Shown here: piece after piece, positions 6,970 to 13,342 of the stretch | Layout of the letters: every line of letters begins with the position of its first letter | Position numbering within the stretch: the stretch's first letter is position 1 | Position numbers and translations under genes: made by a program | The notes under the pieces: generated by a model | What the model was told of the DNA's origin: nothing | Database searches by the model: none | Seen by the model: the letters and a program-made list of their open reading frames with translations, nothing else | NCBI GenBank assembly: GCA_029936815.1 | Contig: JAPYRX010000002.1 | Coordinates: forward strand, 62,001-126,000 | DNA: 64,000 nucleotides | Origin: Dehalococcoidia bacterium | Lineage (GTDB): Bacteria > Chloroflexota > Dehalococcoidia > Lucifugimonadales > GCA-002694895 | Direction: 5' to 3'

Positions 6970-9900
6970 TTAATTTTTACTTTCAATTATATTTATTTTT
7001 TGATTAGATTTAATATTTTTAATTATTTGTGTTGTTCCACTAGGCCATATTACAGTAATTTTATCAATTATTTCAATATTTCCCAAACCATATTCAAGGT
7101 TTATTGAATTCATTGATAAGTAACTTGACCCTGCTCTAACTTCTTGCATTTGAATAATTTTTTTATTTTCCAAATTTGTTATTTCCACATATACTTTTGC
7201 TCCAATTCCATCTGCATTAGACCCTGTTCCATCTATCCCTTTTCTTCCTTTGAGATTTATATCTATCCAATTATTACTTCCCCCGCCATTAATCCAAACA
7301 AAAAATGGACCAGGAGCCTCATCTAATGTTCCGGACCAAACAGGTCCGCTACTATTTGTTCCTATAAGATCTACATATCCATCTCCATTTAAATCTCCAT
7401 GGGCTAATCCTTTTCCATTTTCATGATATTTTGTATGTATTTTATATTTCAAATTGTATATTTCGTCTGGATAAGTATTTTTTGGTAAATTAGAAAAATA
7501 CTTTTTATAATTTATACCTATAATATCTAAGAGATGTGTTCTAACAGTTACATCTTCAAATTCTAAATTTGGCAATCCCATTAACATTCTTCCTGCTGAC
7601 GGATATATATTTCCTCCAGGCCCTTCACCTCTTCCTACTTCTGATCCTAGCCAATATATGTCTTTTATTGTGTCATTATTAAAGTCGAATGCAGTTACTC
7701 CGTATCCAAAGTCATATGCTCCAATCCCTTTTGGGATTAGAACATCATTTTTAATGTTATCAATAATAGTTGCTTCTGCTGGAAGAAAAGGAGACGCTTT
7801 TATATTTATTTTTTCTGAATATTCTGAAAATGATCCAGGAGTTTCATTTTGAATCAGTAAAGAATGCAAACATGTGCCAATATTGTGTAATTCATGATAT
7901 TTACAATCTCCACCAGGTTTTGGTTTAGGACTATTGATTCCCTCTTTTATTATTCTTGAATGAGGGCCAGCATTAGTTATGAATATGTCTTGTAATAGGT
8001 CATTATTAAAATCAGAAACTGTAAAACCCATCCAATTACCAATAACGTTTAAGCCTAGTTCTTTAGATATATGCTTAAATGTTATATTACTTTCTGTAGA
8101 ATCATTTCTATAAATATGTAGTTGATCTCCATCACTAGCAACCCATAAATCTTGATCACCATCATCGTCATGGTCAAAAAATATTGCCGCGTGTGATGGT
8201 CCGGTGGGGTCTCCTACGATATTTGAATTTTTATCTTTGACTTCAGGATTATATCCCATAAATTCTTTATCGGATGTTTTGTCTTTAAAATAAATACCTT
8301 TTGATTCAGGATTTAACATAATCACTTCTGGTCCTTGTACATTTGCTGTTTTACTAATTTCATCAAATGTAAGGTTCCCATTATTTTTATAAAGTAAATT
8401 ATAGTGCCCAGGATGAGAAGGCCAAAACAAGCTAGACATAAAAAAATCTTCGTCAATTAAATTTGTAACATAAAAATCTAGATAGCCATCATTGTTGATA
8501 TCAGAACATATAATACTACTAGCAGACCTGTGATTTGTATTTGAATTAAAAGCAGCATTAGTTATATCTTTGAATTTTCCGTTTTTTAAATTTAAATACA
8601 ATTTGTCTTCTGTCCCTTTATATTTCTGATTGCTTTCATAAGATCTGTAATCTAATCCATCACCATTGAAACCTTTACCTCCTACGTATAAATCTTGAAA
8701 TCCATCATTATTAATATCGCATGCAACAGCTCCACTTGAATTCAGAATTTTTTCGTCTAATCCAGCTTGTTCAGAAAAATCGGTAAAAGTACCATCTCCA
8801 TTATTTTTATATAATAAATTTGAATGTTCGTATCCGTTGGTTATAAAAAAATCCATATCATTATCTCTGTCATAATCGAAAATCACGACTCCTGGCCTGT
8901 AATTCCATACTTCTGTAGCTCCGTTAAATTTTTCGTAGGTTAATTTTGTGAACGGGGTTATTTGATTGTCATTAGATAAATAGAAATTTTCATTTATTAT
9001 TAACTTTTCATTTGTTTGCGTTTGATTTTTATTATGAACAAAATTTTGATCTTCCAGATTTTTTATAATAGGTTTATTGCTTGTGAGTTTTAACCCAAGT
9101 TCTAAATTGTTATTCCCAGATAAAAATAAAGATATCAATCCGGTTAGAATCCCAAGAACCCAAATTAAGATAGCATAATATACTACAGATCTTTTAGGTA
9201 ATACTTTACCTAACCCCCAAAATGTAATCGGACCTCCTGATGCAGCTGTGAAAAGGAGCGTTGAGGCAGGAGCTATTCCCATTCCCATCAATAGAAGAGT
9301 TACAACTAATGGTATTTCAAATAATAAAGGCACGTTGATAAGTACTCCAATAGTACTAGCAATTATTATACCTTTAAGATTATTACCTAAAAAATTATTT
9401 ATTGTATCTGCAGATAAAAATTGTATTACTAATCCAGCCCCAAACCCGGCGATTATCATTATTGGTCCTAGTTTAATAATATTAGCTAATGTGATTTTAT
9501 AAAAATCAATTAAAGCTTCTTTAATTGATTTTTGAAACGAATCTGTATCTTTAGTATTTATATTGGGCAGAGTACTGATTTTTTCGTTTTTCTGTTTCAA
9601 CCCATATGTTAGCCTTGAAATAATTGGCCCAAATAAAAAAACACTAATTACGCCTGCAATTATTCTGTTAAGTGCTAAATCCGGATTGAAAATAGTGAAA
9701 ATCATTATTATAGATAAGAAATTCAAGGTTGAAGATCCTTGAGTTAAAGCTATAACTGATTCGAGAGAAGAACCTTTGTTTTTAAGTGAATTGACAACAG
9801 GTACTATACATGCAGAACATAAGTTTAGAGCTGGCGCAAGTATATATCCTCTCAACATACCTTTTATTCCAGGCGGAAAAATATTTGTATTGTTTTTTTT

Positions 9901-10209
9901 GGGGAAAATAAATGATTCTACAATCCCTGCGATAGCAAAAGCAAAAATCATTCCTAAAAATACCAACTCCATATATTCAAATGAAAAAGTTAGCCACCTT
10001 GAAAGCAAAGTAGCTTCCGGATCTCCTCCGATACAAAAACCTTGGAAACATTCTCCTTTTCTTGAAGCTGATGCAAAAAGTTCTTCTTTTATGGTTCCAA
10101 GTTTTTGGAATCTGTTTAAATAAAAAAATAAAGGCGTGGAAAGTAAAATTAATATTATGCCAATTAATCTTTTTTTGTGTATATTGTTATTTATATTTAT
10201 AAGTTTCAT
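6970..10209 (-). CDS. Predicted permease (COG0701/ArsP-like) fused to FG-GAP/VCBS repeats and a C-terminal ASPIC/UnbV domain
   Basis: N-terminal permease with NLCSACIVPVVNSLKNKG and GPIMIIAGFGAGL...GGPITFWGLG; then repeated FDYDRDNDMDFF/DINNDGFQDLYV motifs; C-terminal NNWIDINLKGRKGIDGTGSNADGIGAKVYV and ITVIWPSG. Start placed at ATG 10209. Confidence 0.88.
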   Translation of the reverse strand: MKLININNNIHKKRLIGIILILLSTPLFFYLNRFQKLGTIKEELFASASRKGECFQGFCIGGDPEATLLSRWLTFSFEYMELVFLGMIFAFAIAGIVESFIFPKKNNTNIFPPGIKGMLRGYILAPALNLCSACIVPVVNSLKNKGSSLESVIALTQGSSTLNFLSIIMIFTIFNPDLALNRIIAGVISVFLFGPIISRLTYGLKQKNEKISTLPNINTKDTDSFQKSIKEALIDFYKITLANIIKLGPIMIIAGFGAGLVIQFLSADTINNFLGNNLKGIIIASTIGVLINVPLLFEIPLVVTLLLMGMGIAPASTLLFTAASGGPITFWGLGKVLPKRSVVYYAILIWVLGILTGLISLFLSGNNNLELGLKLTSNKPIIKNLEDQNFVHNKNQTQTNEKLIINENFYLSNDNQITPFTKLTYEKFNGATEVWNYRPGVVIFDYDRDNDMDFFITNGYEHSNLLYKNNGDGTFTDFSEQAGLDEKILNSSGAVACDINNDGFQDLYVGGKGFNGDGLDYRSYESNQKYKGTEDKLYLNLKNGKFKDITNAAFNSNTNHRSASSIICSDINNDGYLDFYVTNLIDEDFFMSSLFWPSHPGHYNLLYKNNGNLTFDEISKTANVQGPEVIMLNPESKGIYFKDKTSDKEFMGYNPEVKDKNSNIVGDPTGPSHAAIFFDHDDDGDQDLWVASDGDQLHIYRNDSTESNITFKHISKELGLNVIGNWMGFTVSDFNNDLLQDIFITNAGPHSRIIKEGINSPKPKPGGDCKYHELHNIGTCLHSLLIQNETPGSFSEYSEKINIKASPFLPAEATIIDNIKNDVLIPKGIGAYDFGYGVTAFDFNNDTIKDIYWLGSEVGRGEGPGGNIYPSAGRMLMGLPNLEFEDVTVRTHLLDIIGINYKKYFSNLPKNTYPDEIYNLKYKIHTKYHENGKGLAHGDLNGDGYVDLIGTNSSGPVWSGTLDEAPGPFFVWINGGGSNNWIDINLKGRKGIDGTGSNADGIGAKVYVEITNLENKKIIQMQEVRAGSSYLSMNSINLEYGLGNIEIIDKITVIWPSGTTQIIKNIKSNQKINIIESKN

Positions 10210-12396
10210 ATGATTAATAGGCAATACAAATATTATGTTCTGTACTCACTAATAACTATTATAGTTTTATCTACTATTTATTTAGGTTTAAACTACTTTA
10301 ACATTTCTAATAATAATTTTGTTTTAGATAACATAAATTCATATTGTTTGAATTTAAAAAATAGTTCGAATAAATATGTAGGTATTAAGCAGAGTGAAAT
10401 TTGGGAAGCGAAATTAAAAAATGCAGATGATTTTTTTAATTCTTGGTTTTCGAAAATTGGACTAGCTAATTCTGAGCTTCAGTTAGGAAATTTTCAAAAT
10501 TCTGTGAAAATTATTGAGGGTGTTTTGGAGAAAGATGATTTTAGTAATCTGGATACTACCTCTAAGATTGTTACACTCCAAACAGCTGCGTTAATTTATA
10601 TTAAAACTGCAGAATATGAAAATTGTGTAATTCCTGGCGGATCTATTATATGCCAATTACCTGCAGATAATGAATATAAGCATAAACAGGTTAAATATAC
10701 TAAAAAAGCACTAGGTATTCTAAACAAACTGATTTTACTTGATCCAGGAAATTTAAAAGCTAGATGGTTGTTAAATACGGTACATATGTCATTAGGAACT
10801 TATCCTAATGAAGTTGATGAAAATTTATTGATAGATATTCCAGGGAATAATTTCACTGAACAAAATTTGAAATTTCAAGACATATCTATTGAATCGGGTA
10901 TTTACAATGTTGATTTGGCAGGAGGTGTGATTTTTGATGATTTTAATAGAGACGGGTATCCTGATATTGTTACTAGTTCATGGAATCCTTGTTCAAGTAT
11001 GAAATTTTACCTTAATAATGGGCAAGATGGTTTTGAAGATTTATCTGACGATTCAGGCCTTTCTCGACAATTAGGTGGTTTAAACATTGTAAGTACTGAT
11101 TTTAATAATGATGGTTTTATAGATATTTATATTATGAGAGGCGGATGGATGTCAAAAGAAGGCGAAATGATTAATAGTTTGTTGAAAAATAATGGTGATT
11201 TAACTTTTAGCGATGTGACTGAAAAAGTAGGCCTTGATAAATATTCATATCCGTCTCAATCTTCTGCGTGGGGTGATTTTGACAATGATGGCGACATTGA
11301 TTTTTACAGTTGCAATGAATCAGAAATTGATGAAAATTTGAATACGCAATATCCAAGCCATCTTTTTAGTAATGTTGACGGAAAATTTATTGATGTATCA
11401 AAATTTATGTTTCCTAAAAATGAAAGATATTGCAAATCTGTTGATTGGGGAGATTATGATAATGATGGTGATTTAGATTTGTTTGTTTCAAATTATTCTG
11501 AAGCAAATAGATTGTATAAAAATTTAGGTAACAATCAATTTATTGATGTTGCGCCTGAACTTAATATTACCAATCCTTTATTTAGCTTTACATCTTGGTT
11601 TTGGGATTATGATAATGATGGTGATTTAGATATATTTTCATCTGGATATGAATACGGGATAGATAAATCTATCCATAGCTATTTAGGAAATATTGATGCT
11701 AATTATTCTTTGAAAGTATATAAAAACAAAGGTAATGGAACGTTTATAGAAAGTTCGGAAGTTTTGGATTTAAATAAAGTTCATTCAGTAATGGGAGCAA
11801 ATTACGGTGATTTAAATAATGATGGATATAAAGATATATATCTCGGGACAGGATACCCTTATATTGATTCCATTATCCCTAATACATTTTATTTGAATGA
11901 CAAAGGTAAAAAATTTGTAGATCAAACTCATTTATACGGCTTAGGGCATTTACAAAAAGGACATGGGATAGCTTTCGCTGATTTTGATTTGGATGGAGAT
12001 TTGGATATTTTTCAACAAATGGGAGGGTTTTATTTATCAGATGGTTTTACTAATTTATTATACGAAAACCCTGGTAATCAAAATAATTGGATAGGTATTT
12101 ATTTGGTAGGGAAATCTAATAAAATCTCAGTAGGGACTAAGATTAATATTATATGTAATAATGATTTGATTTATAATTCTATTGTAGATAATGGCGCAAG
12201 TTTCGGATCATCTTCCTTCATTAGAACGATAGGAATTGATGATTGTGATAACATAAGAAAAATAGAAATTGATTGGTTTAACAATCCTATAATTCAAGAA
12301 ATAAGTAATGTAAAAATTAATCAATATATTTTGATTGAGGAATTAAATAAAGATTATAAAAAAATCAACTTTAAAATTGGAGACAGAATTGAATAA
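10210..12396 (+). CDS. Membrane-anchored TPR-like / FG-GAP (VCBS) repeat protein with ASPIC/UnbV-like C-terminus (CRTAC1-like)
   Basis: N-terminal TM segment, repeated DFNNDGFIDIYI/DYDNDGDLDLFV motifs, C-terminal NNWIGIYLVGKSNKISVGTKI; start MINRQYKYY at 10210. Confidence 0.85.
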   Translation: MINRQYKYYVLYSLITIIVLSTIYLGLNYFNISNNNFVLDNINSYCLNLKNSSNKYVGIKQSEIWEAKLKNADDFFNSWFSKIGLANSELQLGNFQNSVKIIEGVLEKDDFSNLDTTSKIVTLQTAALIYIKTAEYENCVIPGGSIICQLPADNEYKHKQVKYTKKALGILNKLILLDPGNLKARWLLNTVHMSLGTYPNEVDENLLIDIPGNNFTEQNLKFQDISIESGIYNVDLAGGVIFDDFNRDGYPDIVTSSWNPCSSMKFYLNNGQDGFEDLSDDSGLSRQLGGLNIVSTDFNNDGFIDIYIMRGGWMSKEGEMINSLLKNNGDLTFSDVTEKVGLDKYSYPSQSSAWGDFDNDGDIDFYSCNESEIDENLNTQYPSHLFSNVDGKFIDVSKFMFPKNERYCKSVDWGDYDNDGDLDLFVSNYSEANRLYKNLGNNQFIDVAPELNITNPLFSFTSWFWDYDNDGDLDIFSSGYEYGIDKSIHSYLGNIDANYSLKVYKNKGNGTFIESSEVLDLNKVHSVMGANYGDLNNDGYKDIYLGTGYPYIDSIIPNTFYLNDKGKKFVDQTHLYGLGHLQKGHGIAFADFDLDGDLDIFQQMGGFYLSDGFTNLLYENPGNQNNWIGIYLVGKSNKISVGTKINIICNNDLIYNSIVDNGASFGSSSFIRTIGIDDCDNIRKIEIDWFNNPIIQEISNVKINQYILIEELNKDYKKINFKIGDRIE

Positions 12397-13342
12397 TCAA
12401 TCTATATATACAATGTTACAAAATGAGTCTTGGACTCCAACTCCATTGTTAAAAGCAAATGTTTTAAGCAAATTGCTAAATTCGGAAATTTGGTTGAAAA
12501 GAGAAGATTGTACTCCAGTAAAATCTTTCAAAATAAGAGGTGCTTTAAGTGTATTGTCAGATGTTATGGATAGTAATCAATCTGTAGAAAAAATTGTAGC
12601 AGCATCAGCAGGGAATTACGGATTGGCTATCGCTGAAGCTTGTAGAAGAAATAATATCCCCTGTGTAATATATGTTCCTGAAAATGCAAATGAATCAAAA
12701 GTAAAGAATATTGAATTGAGAGGATCTGAAGTGGTGAAAATAGGCAGGGATTTTGACGATTCTAAAACATTCGCGGCGAAATACGCCGAAGATTCGGGAT
12801 ATCTTTTTTTGGAAGATGGGGAATTGCCTGGTATGCATATAGGAGCTGAAACTATTGGGCATGAATTGTCAGACGAAAATTTTGATTATGTATTTGTACC
12901 TATTGGAAATGGATCTTTGATATCTGGCATTGGGAAGGCATTAAAAAAATATAGTTCGAACACTAAAATTGTAGGATTGATTCCTTCAGAGTCACTTTCT
13001 ATGTATTTAGCATTAAAAGGTAAAGATCATCAGAATCAAACTGCAGATACAATCGCAGATGGATTATCTGTAAGAATTCCTATAATGCAATCAGTGGAAC
13101 GAGTAAAAGAAGTTGTTGATGATATTTTACTTGTTGAAGAAACATTACTTTTAAAAGCAATGAAATCTTTCATAGATACGGAAAATTTATTAGTTGAACC
13201 TTCTTCTGCAATTACCTTAGCAGGACTTGTTCAATACAGAGATGATTATCCTCTAAATAAAAAAATCTGCCTCATTATTACAGGAGGATTAGTAGATCCT
13301 TCAATGATGAATTCAATTATAAATAGCGACAATATAATATGA
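12389..13342 (+). CDS. Threonine/serine dehydratase-like PLP enzyme (fold type II)
   Basis: TPLLKANVLSKLLNSEIWLKREDCTPVKSFKIRGAL, AASAGNYGLAIA; GGAG six nt before TTG 12389 (ORF track extends to 12377). Confidence 0.85.
   Translation: MNNQSIYTMLQNESWTPTPLLKANVLSKLLNSEIWLKREDCTPVKSFKIRGALSVLSDVMDSNQSVEKIVAASAGNYGLAIAEACRRNNIPCVIYVPENANESKVKNIELRGSEVVKIGRDFDDSKTFAAKYAEDSGYLFLEDGELPGMHIGAETIGHELSDENFDYVFVPIGNGSLISGIGKALKKYSSNTKIVGLIPSESLSMYLALKGKDHQNQTADTIADGLSVRIPIMQSVERVKEVVDDILLVEETLLLKAMKSFIDTENLLVEPSSAITLAGLVQYRDDYPLNKKICLIITGGLVDPSMMNSIINSDNII

Follow-up and report, generated by a model that had tools for sequence, protein, structure and literature searches.

The window analysed here, a stretch of 64,000 nucleotides from a Dehalococcoidia genome, carries on its minus strand a single reading frame that runs from an ATG at 10209 to a stop codon at 6970-6972 with no internal stops. 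As the sequence-only reading had held, this frame encodes one covalent protein in which a permease of the COG0701/ArsP_1 group is followed by an FG-GAP/ASPIC ectodomain (Table 1). That reading had left the strand unstated and had put the product at 1080 aa; the one long frame is indeed present, and the figure includes the stop codon, the true length being 1079 aa. It had also proposed an HMM scan as a check, in which ArsP_1, FG-GAP repeats and UnbV_ASPIC were all matched, the ArsP_1, FG-GAP_3 and UnbV_ASPIC matches exceeding the curated Pfam cut-offs. The permease scores 87.4 bits with PF03773 against a gathering score of 32.3, placing it in the ArsP_1 superfamily, and FG-GAP_3 is recognized in five stretches (5.5e-31), with repeats starting from residue 445. 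A search of PHROGs gave no match, and in the PDB no sequence related to the permease was found up to an E value of 10. AlphaFold2, run with only four sequences, yielded pLDDT values of 29 for the full protein and 34 for the permease alone, too low for the models to be of use.

Table 1. Positions in the window of the fusion gene, its parts and its divergent neighbour.
Feature	Position	Strand	Basis
Fusion gene, 1079 aa: 1+4+4-type permease, then FG-GAP/ASPIC ectodomain	6970..10209	-	Open frame, Pfam, genomes of the genus
First transmembrane segment, residues 16-34, extra to the ArsP_1 core	10108..10164	-	Mean hydropathy of 39 relatives; K/R-rich N-terminus
CFQGFC, a CX4C loop motif at residues 54-59; predicted position outside the membrane	10033..10050	-	Conservation in 39 relatives
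ArsP_1/COG0701 permease core, residues 79-359	9133..9975	-	PF03773, 1.2e-24
Membrane CSAC (CxxC) motif, residues 131-134	9808..9819	-	Cys pair kept in all 39 relatives and in three Rhodobacterales fusions
Membrane glutamate E298 in NVPLLFEIPL	9316..9318	-	Conserved without exception in 39 relatives; replaced by Asp in Rhodobacterales
Variable polar linker, residues 366-414	8968..9114	-	Alignment gappy, conservation poor even inside the genus
FG-GAP region, residues 415-1000, acidic DxNxDGxxD-type sites	7210..8967	-	PF13517/PF01839; 19-sequence alignment
UnbV_ASPIC domain, residues 1001-1072	6994..7209	-	PF07593, 5.8e-18
Divergent neighbour, 728 aa: N-terminal TM, FG-GAP repeats, UnbV_ASPIC	10210..12396	+	Pfam
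CATATG, abutting divergent start codons, no intergenic bases	10207..10212	.	Sequence

The window genome is a draft of 1.46 Mb in 35 contigs, a circumstance under which an assembly or annotation artefact could have joined two genes. However, the same fused architecture is found in all four of the other genomes of the genus, at 74-77% identity, and the joined frame recurs in dozens of cases across the order as well as on Rhodobacterales plasmid records labelled complete sequence. Misassembly is ruled out by these independent assemblies, the chance of any artefact is practically negligible, and the earlier claim that the frame does not represent two adjacent genes is upheld. The genome size and the G+C content, which is 30% in the window, resemble those of streamlined euphotic members of SAR202 (PMC11994032), and the window genome appears to be of SAR202 type. 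The fusion is its sole ArsP_1 match.

The permease and the propeller/ASPIC parts each belong to known families. Within the permease, C131, C134 and E298 are invariant in 39 permeases, as are both cysteines, the glutamine and the glycine of the CX4C loop. Three Rhodobacterales fusions retain the cysteine pair, as CVNC or CANC, and carry an aspartate at the glutamate position. Since the CxxC motif and the membrane glutamate are invariant in the 39 relatives, most members are likely to be working transporters, in which these residues would probably make up a transport site that accepts thiol-seeking metals or metalloids, or else a small compound. Three degenerate permeases (two at locus L067, one at L078) have lost both CxxC and Glu and have kept the CX4C loop and the ectodomain, so that transport would not always be needed; the CX4C loop, for its part, seems to be tied to the ectodomain. 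The degenerate fusions, whose permeases fall below Pfam thresholds, are located at L067:6446-9697 and 9817-12972 (minus strand, in tandem) and at L078:6756-9419 (minus strand).

The families to which the permease is related, namely ArsP_1, SaoE and the SO_0444 Cu/Zn efflux proteins, are annotated as movers of soft metals or organoarsenicals. This, together with the membrane CxxC and the outer CX4C loop, would accommodate an ArsP-like efflux of organoarsenicals or of another soft metal, in which the outer domain acts as a metal trap or as a calcium-dependent gate against back-flow. The likeness to ArsP (TC 2.A.119) consists of the PF03773 match over 281 residues and of cysteines located in the same membrane segment. 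Nevertheless, the ArsP proteins surveyed have C(S/T)C within a transmembrane segment (PMC4435449), whereas the window protein has CSAC, and in addition carries the CX4C loop and an outer domain of 700 aa. The NCBIfam models SaoE (NF040736, 1.8e-16) and SO_0444 (NF033936, 9e-10), both without an outer propeller, are HMM relatives of the window permease, but the scores of 60.3 and 38.2 bits lie far below the equivalog cut-offs of 325 and 300, respectively. Finally, no ars operon or other arsenic gene was recognized by eye near the window gene. Efflux of this kind is thus quite unlikely, and arsenical export by the window permease is unproven.

The ArsP plan comprises 4+4 transmembrane segments, and a homologue with a 1+4+4 arrangement has been described (PMC7176098). 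The hydropathy of the window protein, although some segments are of low hydrophobicity, is compatible with the latter, that is, with 4+4 preceded by an N-terminal helix, and the putative duplication of halves that the sequence-only reading had proposed for the permease would fit both the hydropathy and the ArsP plan. In the mean of 39 relatives, K/R residues are concentrated at the N-terminus, in a loop around 104-120 and in those flanks of the 201-250 loop that lie close to the membrane; the loops at 35-70 and 265-277, as well as the linker past the last helix, are acidic. This positive-inside pattern, taken with the ArsP 4+4 plan and the additional N-terminal helix, suggests that the N-terminus lies inside and the C-terminus outside, and thereby predicts the extracytoplasmic position that had been proposed for the propeller. 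SAR202 isolates have monoderm envelopes (PMC10444878), and the ectodomain would therefore face the medium, outside the cell.

The ectodomain, in which FG-GAP repeats precede a C-terminal UnbV_ASPIC domain, has the arrangement of CRTAC1-like proteins, and residues 452-584 match cartilage acidic protein 1 (PDB 9etn) at 1.2e-8. On the basis of family membership, the FG-GAP region probably adopts a beta-propeller fold. To judge from its motifs, it probably also binds calcium: the ectodomain has eight sites of the form [DN]x[DN]x[DNS]xxx[DE], where shuffled sequences average 0.8 and never exceed 7. The window ectodomain differs from CRTAC1-family proteins in being longer, in having four invariant cysteines within the FG-GAP region (497, 568, 769 and 780, in an alignment of 19 sequences), and in being anchored by a multi-span permease rather than exported by a signal peptide.

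It is this last feature that raises the question of whether the permease could be a mere membrane anchor, standing in place of the lipoprotein anchor of an ordinary secreted ASPIC propeller, with function residing entirely in the surface domain. Ectodomains of the window type (type 1, ASPIC1) are commoner as standalone proteins than as fusions, about 67 against 31 by our own count, and where standalone homologues were examined, most proved to have a lipoprotein-like export signal; the window protein has the permease where such a signal peptide or lipoprotein anchor would be. The degenerate permeases of L067 and L078, which still bear the ectodomain, would also suit an anchor. On the other hand, an anchor would have no need of CxxC and Glu, which never vary among the other 39 permeases, and L074, L075 and L090 have standalone permeases with no domain fused to them. 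A purely anchoring role is thus fairly unlikely. In one family, lipoprotein-like standalone propellers (L094:7702-10017, minus strand; L128, L129 and L130) bear CVQGVC near the N-terminus, an instance of the CxQGxC motif found in the permease loop.

Pfam scans and sequence comparison show that the permease has several partners. These include the long type 1 propeller, as in the window protein; a shorter, CRTAC1-like ASPIC propeller (type 2); and, in L081 and L082, of which L082 was scanned, a chain composed of a PD40 propeller, TIG and ASPIC. On well-supported branches of the permease tree, a quick tree with many open forks, the partner changes at least three times for type 1 and at least four times for type 2. 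L074 encodes its permease and its propeller in two genes that overlap, whereas the sister locus L076 has the fused form (support 93). A DUF3179 domain replaces the propeller at L091:7404-9578 (plus strand), and a region of beta-helix-like repeats, with no Pfam family above cut-off, does so at L096:6775-9144 (plus strand).

The exchange of the outer domain for unrelated folds argues against one fixed substrate. An unchanging membrane part that bears swappable outer domains also resembles the design of receptors, and one could imagine that the propeller senses a ligand and that the permease-like membrane part relays a signal. The fusion, however, has no cytoplasmic signalling domain recognized by Pfam, and the transport-site residues are conserved, which makes a receptor improbable.

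The gene that lies head to head with the fusion encodes the only other UnbV_ASPIC protein of the window genome; it includes a region of approximately 230 aa without a Pfam match, TPR-like by eye, and is the probable partner of the fusion protein. Orthologues of this neighbour are present in 17 of 247 genomes, and eight of these adjoin an ASPIC1 propeller gene, as judged from coordinates: four belong to the genus, three are divergent (G033, G083 and G086), and one is on the same strand (G043). The start codons of the two window genes abut, and promoters must therefore lie within the reading frame of the opposite gene, or the transcripts be leaderless. TATAAG and TATTAA are found just upstream of the two divergent starts, and the start coordinates abut likewise in another genome (G003:C1:95083-95084).

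In other families, genes of oligopeptide-type ABC importers (SBP_bac_5 or BPD_transp_1) lie beside the permease gene at ten loci (L063, L065, L079, L081, L082, L087, L088, L089, L097 and L101), on the same strand in all but L079; in GC-rich loci the ORF caller favoured antisense frames, and L063 was corrected. Among 68 near neighbours, SBP_bac_5 occurs in eight, where the approximate background is 0.4-1.1% of genes, with gene numbers estimated from genome size. The binomial probability of 5e-8, calculated at 0.75%, takes no account of relatedness and therefore makes the enrichment look stronger than it is. Standalone ASPIC1 genes in L093 and L094, as well as the split pair of L074, are likewise near ABC importer genes, and in the window no such genes stand beside the fusion. 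A link between the fusion and the importers is suggested by genomic association. The neighbour at L064, considered as a further solute-binding protein, was rejected, being a trypsin-like peptidase.

For the protein as a whole, the reading that we tentatively prefer, at a little short of an even chance, is that of a transporter of the ArsP_1/COG0701 superfamily equipped with a surface FG-GAP/ASPIC module for ligand binding or docking. The C-terminus of the permease would exit on the outer face and carry the probably calcium-binding propeller, and this outer domain would bind either a ligand or a partner protein. Here the partner would most likely be the ASPIC protein of the divergent neighbour gene; for several relatives it would be the solute-binding protein that belongs to the oligopeptide-type ABC importer. 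Capture on the outside would thus be held beside transport. The earlier suggestion that substrate capture or sensing is coupled to export or uptake fits the conservation of the transport-site residues and the ABC-importer operons, the coupling itself being putative; the substrate, the direction of transport and a coupling to the importers are matters of speculation. A broader proposal, that one permease module serves as a chassis for swapped surface-binding domains and, paired with oligopeptide-type ABC importers, gives SAR202-type bacteria a general means of keeping organic or metal-bound solutes, once captured, at a transporter's mouth, is rather doubtful.

The permease is present in 58 of 250 genomes of the order (E <= 1e-30), and about 57 of its 69 genes there are long frames of 868-1304 aa, according to a hand count of the listed genes in which domains were scanned for part of them. 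The remainder includes seven standalone genes (380-432 aa), two cut by contig ends, and other cases. One more genome of the class has a candidate frame of 1105 aa, and the wider phylum yielded one distant family only, in 2 of 400 genomes with four matches each, mostly long frames. A contig scan with a single-sequence query gave matches confined to the genus.

Beyond the phylum, the search covered plasmid records, where the match spans at least 80% of the query in eight records, and where Rhodobacterales proteins that combine ArsP_1, FG-GAP and UnbV_ASPIC are annotated merely as ‘FG-GAP-like repeat-containing protein’. Three of these (UWQ93519.1, WP_076630843.1 and WP_282302541.1; 1002-1032 aa) share the membrane CxxC and show 22-24% identity with the window protein across the permease and the first repeats. 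They differ in that they lack the CFQGFC loop and have another ectodomain with a Cys-rich stretch of its own. The fused design is thus widespread in the order, present in two phyla and, as far as searched, uncharacterized: in the open literature searched, no description of it was found. The sequence-only reading had regarded the architecture as non-standard; it is in fact common in the order and extends to Rhodobacterales, and what stands is that the open papers searched contain no characterization of it.

As far as searched, the fusion is undescribed, and so are the swapping of outer domains and the association with importers. The architecture has no name in the databases searched, and its occurrence in culturable Rhodobacterales makes work on it feasible; a transporter with exchangeable outer domains, tied to importer operons, offers a concrete protein for testing how solutes are selected at the surface.

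Two minor observations concern individual relatives. In the Rhodobacterales fusions of L102, L103 and L105, which have the Cys-rich stretch in the ectodomain, the N-terminal helix is followed by SRYPxL, similar to NRFPKL in SAR202. In G130, a one-contig genome of 3,094,136 bp, a standalone ASPIC1 gene (C1:1815708-1817708, minus strand) contains one in-frame TGA, and an intact fused copy lies approximately 24 kb away.
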